Source: an uncultured Nitrospira sp.
GTDB taxonomy: Bacteria; Nitrospirota; Nitrospiria; Nitrospirales; Nitrospiraceae
Assembly (NCBI GenBank): GCA_902500805.1
Contig: CABVSA010000001.1
Location: 62,001-126,000, forward strand
Direction of reading: 5' to 3'
Length of the DNA: 64,000 nt
The notes beneath the pieces are model-generated. The model did not search any database. It saw only the letters and a list, made by a program, of their open reading frames with translations, and was not told where the DNA came from. The position numbers and the translations under genes are program-made. Below, piece by piece: positions 38,794-53,346 of this stretch. Position 1 is the first letter of the stretch. Each line of letters opens with the position of its first letter.

Positions 38794-39099
38794 TTACTTC
38801 ATGACTTGCGCACTGCAATGCCAGCCCTCTCCCTTCACTCCATTGACGGCTTCGGCGAGCTGCTTCGGCGTCGACTTATCGCTTTCCAGGCTCACAATGA
38901 CGTGCCCTTTCATGCTCTTGAGATCCACTGCTTTGACACCGGCAATCTTTTTCAGCCTGGATTCGACATCACCAAGGTAGAGATCGCAATACTGGCCGCC
39001 AAGCATCAGCATCACCTTCTGCTCCGTCGCGCCTTGCGCGACATGAAAACATACGGACAGTGCCACCACGCCTATAAGACTGATTCGTATCCAATTCAT
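38794..39099 (-). CDS. Exported HMA-like protein with a reduced metal motif
   Basis: 101 residues from the ATG at 39099, preceded by GGAAACC; a longer frame upstream is not supported. A signal peptide (to about 24, AQG) precedes a ferredoxin-like fold: KVMLMLGGQYCDLYLGDVESRLKKIAGV, KAVDLKSMKGHVIVSLES, TPKQLAEAVNGVKGEGWHC. This resembles heavy-metal-associated domains, but the CxxC is reduced to one Cys (GGQYCDLYLG); a second Cys is near the C-terminus (WHCSAQ). It may bind a metal with these two or have lost binding. Convergent spacing with other metal genes supports a metallochaperone-like origin. Confidence 0.72.
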   Translation of the reverse strand: MNWIRISLIGVVALSVCFHVAQGATEQKVMLMLGGQYCDLYLGDVESRLKKIAGVKAVDLKSMKGHVIVSLESDKSTPKQLAEAVNGVKGEGWHCSAQVMK

Positions 39100-39193
39100 G
39101 GGTTTCCGTTTCCAATCTTCACCGTTACAGGTAGTGTCCGCCAATTCTGAAACGATGGATTCTGGCCCTCGAACGCGCACAACGGTGAACCGT

Positions 39194-40702
39194 CTATCCG
39201 GCCAGCGCGGCAGTCCCAATACCCGGTACGATAGAAGCTCTTCGGGACATACCGACGGAACGCCGCCGTGTGGCTCGCTTCAGGACGGGAGCTTGAGTCG
39301 GAGGCGAAGGACATCGTTGACTCACCGTGTCATGGCGTGGTCGCGACAGGGTACTTGGCCGCCGCTCATCACTTCCGCTGGCGGCCACGCGGCATGCTGG
39401 TTGGTGTGCCGAAACCTCGAATGAGGATGCCACTGCCGTTTCGGCCTTGAGCTTGAACCCAACACCCTTGATGGTGACGAGCTGGCAACTCCTGGTTGGG
39501 TCACGATCCAGCTGTTGTCGAAGCGCATGGACATGCACGTCCAACGTATGTTCTCCGATGGCAAAGTTCGGCCCCCACACCGAGTGCACGAGTTCATTTC
39601 GGCTGAATACCCGTGATGGCTCTTGCATGAGTGTCCGAAGAATTGAAAACGGCTTGGTGGAGAGTTGCAGAGGGCGCCCGGCAAGTGTGACCGTGTGAAC
39701 ATCGGCATCCAATTCTACCGCGCCGACCTGATAGACACCACGTGTCGTTGCGGCACATCCGGTTCGACGAAGATACGCCCCCACTTTAGCGACAAAGAGG
39801 CGATGTCCGTCCCGAAAGTCGTGCACGCCGTCTATGCCTCGCTCCAACTCCGACGCCCATTGCTCCTCACCAGACGAACTATCGCAGGGCATCATCATCA
39901 TGATCGGCGTAGACTTCAGCACGGGGCTCGTACGGAGCATCTCCCAATTGTCGATGCGGTGATCCAATAAAAGCAGTGACGGCACACTACGCTCGGCCCA
40001 TGACAAGGCCTCGTCGAGCGTCGCGGCCAGTTGCGTCGCGTGACCGGCTCGGTTCAATGAGGCTCGAACGGCACCCGCGAAGTCCGGATCCGCAGACAGG
40101 ACCATGATAGACGGAGAAACTGTCGACGACGGTTCCATCGATTGAGCGTCACCCTCGCCTACCGGTACTGTACCGATTGGTCGTGCCCGTAACACTACGC
40201 CGAGTAAGCCGATGACGGCCGGCACAAAGAAGACCGCCGAAGATGGAGGGGAAGAAATCGGTTGCAGCGGCGACTGATTCTCTAATGTGAGCGATCCGAT
40301 ATCCGGCGGCGCCACATCTCCGCTCAGGTTCCTTTGGGCTAAAAACGGTAACCGGTTGAATCCAATGACATCCTGCTCTGTCCCTTGCGGAGGCACACTC
40401 CACACGTCAGCCGCCATTTCACGGCACAACACCATGAGATCGTGCAGGAGATTCCTCGATGCCGCAGAAAGCGACAGGTCATCCTGCTGTTGAGAGACTA
40501 CGCCAAGGAGCTGCTGGGCAGTTCCCTGCCCAGTGGCCTGTCGCGTTGCACCAAGGGCGAAGCTGGCTTCATCTCCCGCCGGCATCAACAGGGCACCCCT
40601 CACCTCGCCGTCCATTACAAACAAAAGGGCGACGACCAGACCCAGAACGAGCTGGCTGCACCACCAGTTGGTTGTTTTAGGCTGTTTTCCCTGCTGATTC
40701 AT
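39194..40702 (-). CDS. Membrane-anchored receiver-like/OmpR winged-helix regulator
   Basis: 502 residues. Hydrophobic segments at about 15-34 and 155-172 bracket a ~120-residue loop that would be periplasmic. A receiver-like domain follows (about 197-312) and then an OmpR/PhoB winged helix (about 324-420: VGAVELDADVHTVTLAGR, FSILRTLMQEPSRVFSRNEL, GEHTLDVHVHALRQQLDRD, IKGVGFKL). The receiver keeps the Asp247 (LLLLDHRID) but its acidic pair reads SADPD and the conserved Lys is missing, so phosphorylation is doubtful. The C-tail is Arg/Ser-rich. The gene follows the VPLPA-CTERM gene in the same direction, across two hairpins, and probably controls that protein or the EPS locus. The membrane-then-DNA-binding order is unusual. 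Confidence 0.82.
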   Translation of the reverse strand: MNQQGKQPKTTNWWCSQLVLGLVVALLFVMDGEVRGALLMPAGDEASFALGATRQATGQGTAQQLLGVVSQQQDDLSLSAASRNLLHDLMVLCREMAADVWSVPPQGTEQDVIGFNRLPFLAQRNLSGDVAPPDIGSLTLENQSPLQPISSPPSSAVFFVPAVIGLLGVVLRARPIGTVPVGEGDAQSMEPSSTVSPSIMVLSADPDFAGAVRASLNRAGHATQLAATLDEALSWAERSVPSLLLLDHRIDNWEMLRTSPVLKSTPIMMMMPCDSSSGEEQWASELERGIDGVHDFRDGHRLFVAKVGAYLRRTGCAATTRGVYQVGAVELDADVHTVTLAGRPLQLSTKPFSILRTLMQEPSRVFSRNELVHSVWGPNFAIGEHTLDVHVHALRQQLDRDPTRSCQLVTIKGVGFKLKAETAVASSFEVSAHQPACRVAASGSDERRPSTLSRPRHDTVSQRCPSPPTQAPVLKRATRRRSVGMSRRASIVPGIGTAALAG

Positions 40703-40728
40703 CGTAGTTGCTTCTCATACCCATTAAT

Positions 40729-40790
40729 AGGCACAGCGGCACCCGAGAGCGACCGCTGTGCCTCAGTCTGATCCCAATTGAGGATCAGAC
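40729..40790 (-). promoter_or_regulatory. Two adjacent perfect hairpins between the VPLPA-CTERM and regulator genes
   Basis: Stem one: AGGCACAGCGG (40729-40739) with CCGCTGTGCCT (40753-40763). Stem two: GTCTGATCC (40766-40774) with GGATCAGAC (40782-40790). Both are perfect. Neither is followed by a T-run. They could attenuate expression of the regulator or protect the upstream mRNA. Confidence 0.6.
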
Positions 40791-40796
40791 GCTCTG

Positions 40797-41333
40797 TTAC
40801 GCTAGTGCCGCCATTTTCCGACGGGCCAAGCCTGCCAGACCGATCACACCGGTGCCAAAGAGCCACGCGGCGGCCGGAAGCGGTACATTCGGAACACCAT
40901 TTGAACCCCAGAGGGTCAATGTATACCCCGCGCCTACGCCAGCGAGTCCCTGCGGATGAAGGTGATAGTCGCGGGTCAATCCTAAATCAGCCAACGGCTG
41001 GTTTGAGAAGCTGGCTTGGGCCGCTACGACCTCCGTATCACCGTTATTTTCAAAAATCGGAACTCCGAAGGACGCGATGCCGGGAGCCGTCGAGGTCATG
41101 TTGAAGTGCGTGAACGACCCCAGATCAAAATTGATCGTGTCCAAGAAAATTCCGCTTCCCCCAGGATTGCCGGGATCCGGAACATTGATCACGACCGGGT
41201 TCGCCTGGCTTCCGAGGGTATTGTTAAAGACCCCTGCATCCAGCGTGACCGCCTGAGCGGTTGCGCCGAAAGCCAACGCTCCAGCAGCGACCAATCCGGC
41301 CACCGCCGTCTTCAGCTTATGTGTGCATGTCAT
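40797..41333 (-). CDS. VPLPA-CTERM surface protein
   Basis: 178 residues from the ATG at 41333, with AAAGGAG upstream. A signal peptide (about 1-27, ALAFGATAQA) and a C-terminal sorting signal VPLPAAAWLFGTGVIGLAG followed by ARRK mark it as a VPLPA-CTERM protein, the variant processed by XrtD-type exosortases. The mature region is beta-rich, with no Cys. It should be cleaved and attached to or released at the cell surface. It lies just downstream of the EPS locus, and its own promoter region contains two copies of a 21-22 bp motif. Function unknown; surface-layer or matrix role is likely. Confidence 0.88.
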   Translation of the reverse strand: MTCTHKLKTAVAGLVAAGALAFGATAQAVTLDAGVFNNTLGSQANPVVINVPDPGNPGGSGIFLDTINFDLGSFTHFNMTSTAPGIASFGVPIFENNGDTEVVAAQASFSNQPLADLGLTRDYHLHPQGLAGVGAGYTLTLWGSNGVPNVPLPAAAWLFGTGVIGLAGLARRKMAALA

Positions 41334-41735
41334 ACTGAACTCCTTTGTTAGGGTTATAAGGACTGAACGGAACGTCATCTGACCGTATGAGATAGAGCCC
41401 GATATCGGTCACACCTACGCTTATAGTTCGTACGCCGATGGAGATCTACCGACCGGAGCACCGCCTGCTACCACATGTGACAAGAAAACGCTGTCTGTAG
41501 AATGAATCAACACTCCGCACAGAATCCTCCACTTCCGACCACGCGGTAATGGTAGCAAGAGCGGTCAAGTGCCCACTACCAACAGATACAACGGATGCTA
41601 CAAATGTGACAAGAAATGGGGGGGGGATCGGTCGAAGCTATTAAGAAGTGTGGATACTCACGTATCGAGCCAGCGTGAAACGACCGGCCATGAACCGAGT
41701 CGCCCTCGTAACGGAGGAGGGCGTCACGCAGCAGT
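41334..41735. other. Intergenic region upstream of the VPLPA-CTERM gene
   Basis: About 400 bp with no gene. It contains direct repeats TGCTAC-N2/3-ATGTGACAAGAAA at 41466-41487 and 41596-41616. No sigma-54 consensus is visible. An eight-G run lies near 41620. Confidence 0.5.
41466..41616. repeat. Two direct copies of TGCTAC-N2/3-ATGTGACAAGAAA
   Basis: The copies at 41466-41487 and 41596-41616 share TGCTAC and a 13-base ATGTGACAAGAAA exactly, separated by three or two bases. Starts are 130 bases apart, about 133 and 263 bases upstream of the VPLPA-CTERM start. They may be regulator-binding sites. Confidence 0.6.
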
Positions 41736-43178
41736 CTATTTAAAAGTCGGGAATCGCTGGGGTCGCTCGCGACGGGACGCCTGTCCGTACTTTTTGAAGA
41801 GCGAGCCTAACCAAGAAGTCGTGGTTGAACCGGTCGCCCGGCCATTTCCCCGAGCGTGACCGAGTCGGTCCAATCGCACCGCCACATCACGATACGGCAA
41901 GCCGTCCTGCTGCAACTGCTGGTACAGATCGACAGCCTCAGCCGGCCTTCCTGCATCTTCGAAGATGCGCCCCAGCAAATACTCCAGGGCGGTTCGATCG
42001 TCCACTGAGGCGGAACCACGGCTCAGCGCCAGTTGCAGTGCGGTGATGGCTTCATCAAATCGCCCCATGGCTTTCAGACATACCCCTTTTTTAGCCAGCG
42101 CCTTCACGTGCCAGAACTCTTGTTCCGCTAAGCGGTCGAACAGGATGATCGCCTGCTCAAACTGCCCTACCTCCTTCAGCGCGATGGCTTCCTCGTAGAG
42201 GGCCGCGGAATCCTGTGCCACGGCGCACGCGAGCTCCTTTCCGTCGTCTGTCGTCTGAACAACGTCGCTGAGTTGCTCGTCCCGAGCGTGAAAGGATCGA
42301 ACTTCTCCATCTTCTTCTTCCGCCTCCGTCGGCGAGACTTTAAGCGATTCAGGGGAGACCTTGAAGGGAAACATCGCATGGCGATCCCTCGCGGCCGCGG
42401 CATCGAGCACAACGCGAGCCGTGATGTACACCGATTGCTTGGCAACGCCATACACCAGCGCATGGTCGCACAGCTGATTGATCAGACGTGGGATTCCCCC
42501 GCTGAGACGGAACACGGACCGACAGGCAGACGTTGTAAACAGCGGCGTCGTTCTCCCTGACACCTGGAGCCGATGCATGATGTACGCGATCGTTTCATCT
42601 TCGGACAGCGCATCCAAGACATACTCGACGCCGATGCGCTGTGCGAGCTGCACCATTCCGGGCCCCTTCAGAAAATCTCGTAACCCCAGTTGCCCCGATA
42701 GTACAATTTGCAGCGACCGACGGCGCCCGTCGTTCAAATTCGAGAGCAACCGAAGTTCCTCCAACATCGTCGTCCCGATGTTCTGCGCTTCATCGACGAT
42801 CAAGAGCACACGCCGCCCGGCGCTCCGTTCCCGTTCCAAGAATCGTGAAAAGTCCTGAAACATCTCCGTCTCGCTCTTGCCGGCCGTCGGCATGTCGAAG
42901 GCGGTCGCAATCCACGGCAATAGTCCACCGAATCCAGCATGCGTATTCGACAGAACCCCGATCGTCCATGGATGACGGGTTTCATCCAGCAGCTGATTGA
43001 GCAGCGTGGTCTTCCCCGTCCCTGGTTCGCCCGTGATGATGATGAATGCGGACCCGTTGGCCAAGCCGTATTCCAAGAGGCTCAGCGCCATTTTGTGCTT
43101 CGCCCCCAAATAGAGAAATCCCGGGTCGGGCAGCAGCGTGAACGGCTGGGCTTTCAATTGATAATGGGTTTCGTACAT
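41736..43178 (-). CDS. ExeA-type ATPase with C-terminal TPRs (exosortase-system associated)
   Basis: 480 residues. N-terminal AAA ATPase with Walker A GEPGTGKTT (about 51-59), Walker B LLIVDEAQN and sensor-like SGQ, then an EDETIAYIMHRL lid. This matches the XrtA/PEP-CTERM-associated ExeA-like ATPases. After about residue 315 comes a TPR region (CLKAMGRFDEAITALQLAL and neighbours). It likely energises assembly or export of EPS. It starts 10 bases after the BY-kinase stop, with AGGTGGAGACTG upstream. Last gene of the locus core on this strand. Confidence 0.87.
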   Translation of the reverse strand: MYETHYQLKAQPFTLLPDPGFLYLGAKHKMALSLLEYGLANGSAFIIITGEPGTGKTTLLNQLLDETRHPWTIGVLSNTHAGFGGLLPWIATAFDMPTAGKSETEMFQDFSRFLERERSAGRRVLLIVDEAQNIGTTMLEELRLLSNLNDGRRRSLQIVLSGQLGLRDFLKGPGMVQLAQRIGVEYVLDALSEDETIAYIMHRLQVSGRTTPLFTTSACRSVFRLSGGIPRLINQLCDHALVYGVAKQSVYITARVVLDAAAARDRHAMFPFKVSPESLKVSPTEAEEEDGEVRSFHARDEQLSDVVQTTDDGKELACAVAQDSAALYEEAIALKEVGQFEQAIILFDRLAEQEFWHVKALAKKGVCLKAMGRFDEAITALQLALSRGSASVDDRTALEYLLGRIFEDAGRPAEAVDLYQQLQQDGLPYRDVAVRLDRLGHARGNGRATGSTTTSWLGSLFKKYGQASRRERPQRFPTFK

Positions 43179-51723: not shown

Positions 51724-53346
51724 TCAGTCCGGAACATACCGGTCTAATAACGGTGTCACGAGGCCGGCCAGCGTCTGCAATCGCTGATCCGCCACCGCCT
51801 CGCTTTCTCCCGCATGGACGGATGATGTCAGACGAATGAGCGCCCCATCCGCACGGTGTCGCGTGAGCGAATCCCAAAACAGGAAAAACTTCACCAAATA
51901 TTCACTCGTGATCCATCGATCACGCTGCTTGAACCAGTAATACACGATCTGCTTCTGTCCGCCTTTTTGAATCACCACGCGATTGATTTCCCGTCCGGGT
52001 GCGCCGCCGGCTACGCGATCCATCTCCACAGGCTCGAACGATGTGATCTCCCATCCCCCTCCCGGAATGCATTGTTTCGGTGAGTGGGAAGACCGCCCCT
52101 TCTTGGGAGACAGGTAGTAGGCGACATACACGTTGACGGTCGGCTGACCGGTCGCCGTGTAATCTGCCAAGAGATAGTCGTCCAATTGCAGCGCGTCGAG
52201 ATATTGTCGCTCAATGGGAGAGGAGACCCCCTCCCAGGCATCGAGTCTCAACGGAAATTCCAGGAGCGATTGTCGTACGGGCTGGGGAAACTCCTCTTGG
52301 ACAAGCAAGGGCGCAATAGGGACCGTGAGGACCAGAAAAGCGACCCCCACGGCAAACGACGCGACCGGCGTGTGACGCGTGACCGATGGCCCGGAGACCG
52401 TCCTTGTCTCCGGCAATCCGATGAGTTCCCAAAATGGACGCGATGGGAGACCGGACCCGACCTTTCCGAGCAGCCACATTTCCAAACAGAGCAAGCCCAG
52501 GCTCGCGACAAAGATGACCCAGCCCTCGAAGAAATGTGTAAATCCCTCAGCTGCACCTGAGCCGTAGTGTTCGACCAATACGCCGATGACGCCGATTCGA
52601 ACGCCATTCAGTAAGATCGAGATGGGGATACTCGAGAGAACAAGCAGGATCCGCTTCCAGAGCGTATCGCGATAGAGATAGGCCCCCAGAATCGTCAGCG
52701 TCGTGAGCGGGAATAAATATCGGAGCCCACTGCACGCCTCCACGACTTGTAATTGAATCCTTCCCAGATCAATGACATTCCCATCCCGAAGCGCCATGAT
52801 CCCGATCGATTGAAGAAATCCGATTCCAAGGGCCGAGGACCATAACTGGAGCCGGCTCGACAGTTCATACTGGAGAAAGGTGGGTGGTGGAATAGCCGCG
52901 AGTAAGTAGCAAAGCGGAAAGGCGATTTGGCGTATCCCGGAGAGCCCGATCGCACACGTCAGCAGCCCGACGATGACCAGCCAGAGCGAGACATGGACAA
53001 TCGCATGCATCGCGGCAAACTGTCCCACCACGTACATAAACAAACCGACCCCGACAATCGGCACCCCCCACCACGTTCCGGATATGTTGACCGATTGAAG
53101 TCCATGCCGCCGCATCCATATCATGTACAGGGAGATCAGCGGGATGAACGGACCATGACTGTTATTATCCTCAAGCCAGGCGTCGACCAGGAACCGTAAA
53201 CTGTCGGCATAGAGATAGCCGAGGATCGTGGCCACAGCCGCCAGAAGCACCCAGAAGAACGGATTGCCTCCGTTCAACACAGAGGATCTCAACGGGAGTT
53301 CCGAAGAAGCAGATGAGGTACCGAGAGTCGTCGGGCGAGTCGTCAT
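51724..53346 (-). CDS. xrtD: Exosortase-EpsI fusion, XrtD type
   Basis: 540 residues. The N-terminal ~300 form a multi-helix exosortase with catalytic Cys205 (VVEACSGLRYLFP), Arg250 (LNGVRIGVIG) and His271 (EGFTHFFEGW). The C-terminal ~210 are an EpsI-type domain (LEFPLRLDAWEGVSS, YVAYYLSPKKGRSSHSPKQCIPGGGWE). The fusion is the plan of XrtD, specific for VPLPA-CTERM tags, and a VPLPA-CTERM protein lies at 40797-41333. It should cleave and transfer such tags in the membrane. Transcription probably begins at the element described at 53376-53453. Next to it is the hyaluronidase-like gene. Confidence 0.9.
   Translation of the reverse strand: MTTRPTTLGTSSASSELPLRSSVLNGGNPFFWVLLAAVATILGYLYADSLRFLVDAWLEDNNSHGPFIPLISLYMIWMRRHGLQSVNISGTWWGVPIVGVGLFMYVVGQFAAMHAIVHVSLWLVIVGLLTCAIGLSGIRQIAFPLCYLLAAIPPPTFLQYELSSRLQLWSSALGIGFLQSIGIMALRDGNVIDLGRIQLQVVEACSGLRYLFPLTTLTILGAYLYRDTLWKRILLVLSSIPISILLNGVRIGVIGVLVEHYGSGAAEGFTHFFEGWVIFVASLGLLCLEMWLLGKVGSGLPSRPFWELIGLPETRTVSGPSVTRHTPVASFAVGVAFLVLTVPIAPLLVQEEFPQPVRQSLLEFPLRLDAWEGVSSPIERQYLDALQLDDYLLADYTATGQPTVNVYVAYYLSPKKGRSSHSPKQCIPGGGWEITSFEPVEMDRVAGGAPGREINRVVIQKGGQKQIVYYWFKQRDRWITSEYLVKFFLFWDSLTRHRADGALIRLTSSVHAGESEAVADQRLQTLAGLVTPLLDRYVPD

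Follow-up and report, generated by a model that had tools for sequence, protein, structure and literature searches.

How do bacteria match the supply of exosortase substrates to their capacity for sorting them? To our knowledge, this is an open question. The locus described here makes it directly testable, because its regulator appears to carry a sorting signal and because a candidate DNA element and regulon can be defined. The regulatory link to exosortase substrates that we found described involves a separate kinase/regulator pair (PrsK/PrsR); if the reading proposed below is true, it would provide an example from bacteria in which the action of a sortase-type enzyme influences transcription. 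The window, i.e. the whole stretch of DNA analyzed, is 64,000 nt of a Nitrospiraceae genome (G000:C1:62001-126000), and the relevant features are these:

38794-39102, minus strand: small exported HMA-domain protein, the conserved downstream neighbor
39194-40702, minus strand: fusion gene, 502 aa (from the ORF, profile matches and family alignment)
40729-40763 and 40766-40790, minus strand: two strong stem-loops in the gap that separates the VPLPA gene from the fusion gene (from folding energy)
40797-41333, minus strand: VPLPA-CTERM partner protein (P0002), sorting signal at 40815-40886, orthologue in 25 of 27 fusion genomes
41440-41486, minus strand: second, diverged copy of the element, TTCTTGTCACATGTGGTAGCAGGCGGTGC..GGTAG, of which only the 15-bp core was scored
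41573-41611, minus strand: conserved 39-bp candidate regulatory element, TGTCACATTTGTAGCATCCGTTGTATCTGTTGGTAGTGG, upstream of the partner gene (from the matrix scan)
41736-43178, minus strand: XrtA/PEP-CTERM-type ATPase of the EPS locus, the upstream neighbor (profile match)
51724-53346, minus strand: VPLPA-CTERM-specific exosortase XrtD, fused to an EpsI domain (TIGR04152, 519 bits)

The VPLPA-CTERM gene sits upstream of the fusion gene in the same direction, and its product clears the TIGR03370 cut-off (30.8 versus 25.35 bits); both genes, as called in a first-pass annotation of this DNA, are confirmed. The stem-loop region between them (40729-40790) folds at -45.8 kcal/mol (z -2.9) and would fit a single operon with unequal output. 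XrtD is encoded ~11 kb from the fusion gene, further upstream in the EPS locus. At many loci of the family, the HMA-domain protein is likewise found downstream of the fusion. Four exosortases are encoded in this genome (contigs C1, C14, C18 and C131), as are at least 14 VPLPA-CTERM proteins that score above cut-off.

The fusion protein runs from a signal peptide through a short ectodomain and a single helix to a receiver-like domain, an OmpR/PhoB winged helix and a basic tail:

40595-40702, minus strand: signal peptide, residues 1-36, predicted site VRG/A (heuristic, no dedicated predictor)
40259-40594, minus strand: predicted periplasmic ectodomain, residues 37-148, fast evolving
40181-40258, minus strand: predicted transmembrane helix, residues ~149-174, ISSPPSSAVFFVPAVIGLLGVVLRAR, a degenerate (PSS-type) VPLPA-CTERM sorting helix
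39749-40114, minus strand: atypical receiver, residues 197-318, with D247 kept and the acidic pair and Lys lost
39446-39733, minus strand: OmpR/PhoB-type winged helix, residues 324-419
39197-39442, minus strand: Arg-rich C-terminal tail, residues 421-502, last residues AALAG

Two hydrophobic stretches are present in the window protein (residues ~14-37 and ~153-171), as the first-pass annotation had noted in proposing two membrane segments. The first of these looks like a cleavable signal peptide: an n-region charge and h-region are present by heuristic criteria, and most relatives have a small-residue site of the AxA/A type. With these features, the mature protein probably has one membrane span, not two. 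The winged helix matches PF00486 over residues 342-418 (E 2e-19, 69.8 bits versus a cut-off of 26.2). The receiver alone is weak (PF00072, 14.1 bits, under the 30.2 cut-off), and receiver plus winged helix align end to end with PhoB/RegX3-type proteins (TIGR02154, positions 3-225 of 226, E 9e-29, under the equivalog cut-off). An alignment with 2oqr_A covers residues 196-419 (E 3e-23), and 26/26 family members match full-length PhoB-type profiles. AlphaFold2 run on P0001 and a 90%-identical orthologue gave a pLDDT of 30.6, and the model was set aside.

The DNA-binding domain lies C-terminal to the helix, the opposite of the ToxR/CadC-type order, and the receiver has S203/A204 in place of the acidic pair and lacks Lys at the expected position. 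Both points had been made in the first-pass annotation and are borne out, with one qualification: the phospho-acceptor Asp, D247 (39962-39964), is kept and is invariant in 26/26 relatives. The domain is probably best viewed as an atypical receiver, for which classical kinase control appears unlikely. The earlier suggestion that regulation occurs without a kinase gains from the fact that no kinase gene was seen adjoining the fusion gene in the window, but is tempered by the invariance of D247.

We asked how widely this architecture occurs. The same order is found in 27 of 175 Nitrospiraceae genomes, so that the architecture is conserved. Counted among them are G070, whose protein has lost the N-terminus, G101, where a contig end truncates the gene, and G097, which nearly duplicates G096; our family alignment, A1, contains 26 full-length fusion proteins from 24 genomes. 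The public relative Nitrospira sp. UBA5698 encodes the 90%-identical orthologue. Since the same order recurs in this orthologue and in the other full-length relatives (26 proteins), it is not due to chance. A sample of 396 genomes from the phylum had 21 positives, in 3 of its 169 genera and all within Nitrospiraceae, and a scan of viral contigs found no relatives. The P0002 partner is present in 26 of the 175 genomes, i.e. in 25/27 fusion-positive genomes versus 1/148 others (Fisher P = 7e-27), the exception being G126, which has the partner without the fusion. XrtD was found in 25/27 fusion genomes. The first-pass annotation had placed the regulator with the sorted protein and next to the EPS locus. 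The link to the sorted protein holds, and XrtD is indeed ~11 kb away, but an EPS/XrtD neighborhood is seen in only part of the family; the constant companions of the fusion are the VPLPA partner and the DNA element. Taken as a whole, the interpretation given in the first-pass annotation is partly supported and becomes more specific here.

What is the membrane helix of the fusion (helix 2)? It aligns gap-free to VPLPA signals, a relationship missed in the first-pass annotation. We built a scoring matrix from 66 distinct standalone VPLPA signals at the same loci. Eleven fusion helices score 24-34 bits, compared to a left-out minimum of 24 for the standalone signals and a mean of -28 (maximum 2.9) for ordinary transmembrane windows. 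The other fusion members, that of the window included, form a PSS-type series running from 16 down to -7.6 bits, and the window helix, at -7.6, has a score reached by only 0.23% of transmembrane windows. In every full-length fusion, the best-scoring segment is helix 2. Eleven proteins, ten of them in A1 and the other being the truncated one from G101, have a canonical or near-canonical signal, e.g. VPLPAGIILFGSGLCGIVGIVIRR. P153, F159 and G165 are invariant across the family, with P153 the equivalent of the second Pro in VPLPA. The sorting-type signal is not at the extreme C terminus; ~330 residues follow, the distance from helix 2 to the C terminus being mostly ~325-335 residues (280-337 overall). 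Searched in isolation against NCBIfam, the window helix, whose motif is without VPxPA, matched no sorting-signal model, and helices of canonical members gave weak PEP-CTERM-type matches (15.3 bits for the best relative versus the TIGR03370 cut-off of 25.35). Homology therefore rests on alignment, matrix, position and chimera.

The chimeras are L060 and L061 (in G133 and G139), in which the DNA join falls inside the helix. Over nucleotides 1-617, L060 shares 83% identity with a standalone VPLPA gene that in G148 is the immediate upstream neighbor of the fusion gene; over nucleotides 681-1574, its identity to fusion regulators is 65-69%. Of all the evidence, this exchange speaks most strongly for regarding the fusion helix and the VPLPA helix as one module. 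These data make a strong case that helix 2 is homologous to the VPLPA-CTERM sorting signal and that the fusion family is genuine, and we hold both with high confidence. Canonical motifs sit at three places of the family tree. One caveat here is G133, which has a canonical-motif fusion and several VPLPA-CTERM genes; no exosortase was found in its 94% complete assembly, and this counts against a reading in which the helix is coupled to an exosortase.

To compare constraint along the protein, we calculated dN/dS for seven pairs. Values are 0.04-0.31 for the helix (0.04-0.20 in four PSS-type pairs), 0.05-0.18 for the winged helix in six of the pairs (0.32 in the seventh, a pair that differs at very few positions), and 0.08-0.72 for the ectodomain, the least conserved stretch between signal peptide and tail. 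Helix and winged helix are under purifying selection, and this includes the PSS-type helices.

In a tree built on receiver plus winged helix, a soluble orphan OmpR/PhoB regulator of Nitrospira XrtD loci is the closest outgroup. It shares both domains at full length with the fusion but differs in being an open frame of 238-292 aa with no signal peptide or helix. In G103, G121 and G158 its gene lies ~3.5 kb beyond the XrtD-locus ATPase, on the side of the ATPase that holds the VPLPA/fusion pair in the window. Other soluble regulators, also without signal peptide, ectodomain and helix, are nested within the family tree and have lost the tether. One of them, L062 (G085:C74), has a clean in-frame loss of all three parts. 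Their nested position suggests that the regulator part can work untethered. L062 adjoins the same VPLPA partner and element and is a natural untethered variant with which the fusion can be compared. We also considered an internal start yielding a soluble regulator and rejected it, as no Met is conserved ahead of the receiver. Two soluble orphan regulators of the XrtD type, L002 (G000:C1:157592-158221) and L103, have Glu in place of the phospho-acceptor Asp (IIVERQ), possibly as a phosphomimic.

The region upstream of the partner gene contains, as a conserved feature, the element TGTCACATCTGTAGCATCCGTTGTATCCGGTGGTAGCAG with repeated CTGTAGCA-like blocks. The first-pass annotation had named repeats at 41466-41616 as candidate target sites, and this is supported by the conservation of the 39-bp element ahead of VPLPA-CTERM genes: one repeat core (41601-41615) overlaps the element at 41573-41611, and the other (41472-41486) is the core of the diverged second copy. 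When 742 kb were scanned with a matrix, 36 sites exceeded 14 bits, compared to a maximum of 8.6 in shuffled sequence. Intact VPLPA-CTERM ORFs follow 33 of these sites, and a frame-broken orthologue follows one more. When training sites and their orthologues were removed, 17/19 sites preceded VPLPA-CTERM ORFs, versus 7.7% of random positions. In the window genome, a second site lies at C1:188488, ahead of another VPLPA-CTERM gene. Rfam gave no match in this upstream region, and an RNA reading of the element was dropped.

We also searched whole genomes with a lax pattern, which occurs in 21/27 fusion genomes versus 4/148 others (reversed-pattern control, 0). Sites away from the fusion locus (on another contig or at least ~10 kb distant) are present in 10/27 versus 4/148 genomes (P = 1e-6), and among XrtD-positive genomes the element is found in 19/25 with the fusion versus 3/87 without (P = 1.6e-13). 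However, because the genomes are related, part of this linkage reflects shared descent of one locus, and these P values overstate independence. Lax matches ahead of non-VPLPA small exported proteins (G086, G087:C13, L105/L106/L131) were excluded from the support for substrate genes, and their genomes were retained in the genome counts. Of the four genomes with the lax pattern but no fusion, G119 has its site ahead of a VPLPA-type-family protein truncated at the contig end and G086 ahead of a small exported non-VPLPA protein; in G031 and G150, no ORF was found after the site. Overall, it is likely, judging from position and co-occurrence, that the fusion protein controls its own operon and other VPLPA-CTERM genes via the 39-bp element.

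Element-like sites were also noted elsewhere. At L105, L106 and L131 (G057, G059 and G062) they precede a conserved ~140-aa secreted protein without a sorting signal (..AFFEEEGRCQKRDLRGNWVS..), a possible further regulon member. Those at L040 (13703 and 17986), L114 and L115 precede small exported proteins, some of them His-rich, ending in or near (R)APP, and look like another promoter class with a similar box.

Could the element be the target of a different protein, e.g. the soluble orphan OmpR-type regulator of XrtD loci, with the fusion regulating something else? The recognition-helix region of the soluble relatives is similar (EHALDVHIHSLR versus EHTLDVHVHALR), and the window genome itself holds one of them (L002). 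Yet genomes with XrtD and a soluble regulator but no fusion (e.g. G103, G120, G121, G159 and G160) lack the element by either pattern, and the matrix scan of three soluble-regulator loci gave at most 10.3 bits, versus 51.5 for the window site. We consider this explanation improbable. It is also conceivable that the fusion is a decaying accident or two-gene read-through with no regulatory role. Haft et al. (2006) suggested that PEP-CTERM signals followed by long tails may be non-functional (PMC1569441), and some copies of the fusion are damaged: a stop codon interrupts L048, and in G070 the gene has been separated from its N-terminus. Arguing against such decay are the open frame and conserved order of 26 full-length proteins, the low dN/dS of the winged helix in six of seven pairs (0.05-0.18) and the near-perfect co-occurrence with the partner gene; this view is largely refuted and, in our judgment, very improbable. 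In G070 (loci L144 at C27 and L042 at C6), the element and VPLPA gene remain on the XrtD contig beside Xre-like and Fic-like frames, and the regulator part, its N terminus gone, is on another contig.

A harder question is whether helix 2 has anything to do with sorting. The fusion could be a plain membrane-tethered one-component regulator whose ectodomain senses an outside signal, its sorting-derived helix being an inherited anchor with no exosortase role. Consistent with this, the window protein and ~15 relatives have a degenerate motif, membrane-tethered regulators that contain receiver domains have been described as a class (PMC10269533), and the invariant helix residues could reflect packing. 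On the other hand, the ectodomain is poorly conserved and has been exchanged for that of a neighboring exosortase substrate, which one would hardly expect of a specific sensor; three places in the tree have canonical motifs; and XrtD is present in nearly all fusion genomes (25/27). We regard the anchor-only explanation as rather unlikely.

With moderate confidence, we favor a model in which the fusion would be a membrane-tethered, probably kinase-independent OmpR/PhoB-type regulator of its own operon and of other exosortase substrates, anchored by a sorting helix that may double as the sensor. The N terminus would be exported by the signal peptide, as its sequence indicates, leaving the ectodomain outside the inner membrane and the receiver and winged helix in the cytoplasm. 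Helix 2 and the basic residues behind it would form a single-span tether with the regulator inside, and the receiver fold may transmit or stabilize dimerization without classical phosphorylation chemistry. From co-occurrence and position, the regulator is predicted to bind the 39-bp element ahead of its own operon and of other VPLPA-CTERM genes. The sorting helix, for its part, might read the state of surface-protein sorting by being bound, held or cut by the exosortase like ordinary substrates, a step that we propose tentatively, because of the homology, the maintained constraint and the presence of XrtD in 25/27 fusion genomes. In canonical VPxPA members, a cut would release the ectodomain, and what is left would be a shortened regulator that is still tethered. 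In the PSS-type member of the window, the helix would more likely be an uncut pseudo-substrate or anchor, given its degenerate motif. Weighing against the model are this motif, the suggestion of Haft et al. on long-tailed signals, the G133 case and the soluble regulators nested in the family. One could then envisage a feedback circuit with the sorting signal as sensor, in which the regulator, as a substrate or pseudo-substrate, gauges sorting capacity and sets expression of other substrates via the element; we view such a circuit as possible, without calling it probable. The co-occurrence of the fusion with an element ahead of genes for tagged proteins points to the possibility that the amounts of surface proteins are controlled by means of the tag itself.

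How does this arrangement compare with known systems? Hybrid TTRs are a described class of transmembrane transcription regulators with response-regulator domains (PMC10269533). Like them, the fusion has a membrane helix and a DNA-binding domain in one chain; its two-component part would be the receiver-like domain, which falls below the Pfam cut-off but is covered by full-length profiles. Thus, the domain order alone is not new. Unlike hybrid TTRs, the fusion has an exosortase sorting helix as its probable anchor, no kinase domain, a receiver without the acidic pair and Lys, and a coupling to VPLPA-CTERM substrate genes. With VPLPA-CTERM substrates (TIGR03370, with XrtD TIGR04152), it shares a signal peptide, a variable ectodomain, the series of motif, helix and basic cluster, and occurrence in XrtD genomes; it differs in the ~330 residues with a DNA-binding regulator behind the signal and in the degenerate motif of the window protein. 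PrsK/PrsR and the sigma-54 sites at PEP-CTERM genes (PMC1569441) resemble the fusion system in placing a conserved DNA site upstream of exosortase-substrate genes, but there the kinase and sigma-54 regulator are separate and the DNA site is unrelated. For a sorting signal lying mid-protein between two domains, there is Haloferax HVO_0405, an archaeosortase substrate with a central tripartite signal in a domain fusion, for which cleavage by ArtA has been shown (PMC7157517, PMC9263693). These reports describe HVO_0405 as a strain-specific domain fusion, and we found no regulatory role given there for its distal domain. Enzyme and motif differ from those considered here, and ArtA action on HVO_0405 is a precedent for a sortase-like enzyme working on an internal signal. 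A search of the open-access literature turned up neither an account of an exosortase-signal/regulator fusion nor one of the 39-bp element.

Finally, the regulator and its partner have similar C-termini, AALAG (within the tail at 39197-39442) and MAALA (40797-40811), respectively. Similar Ala-rich ends are seen in relatives, and these might act as C-terminal degrons.
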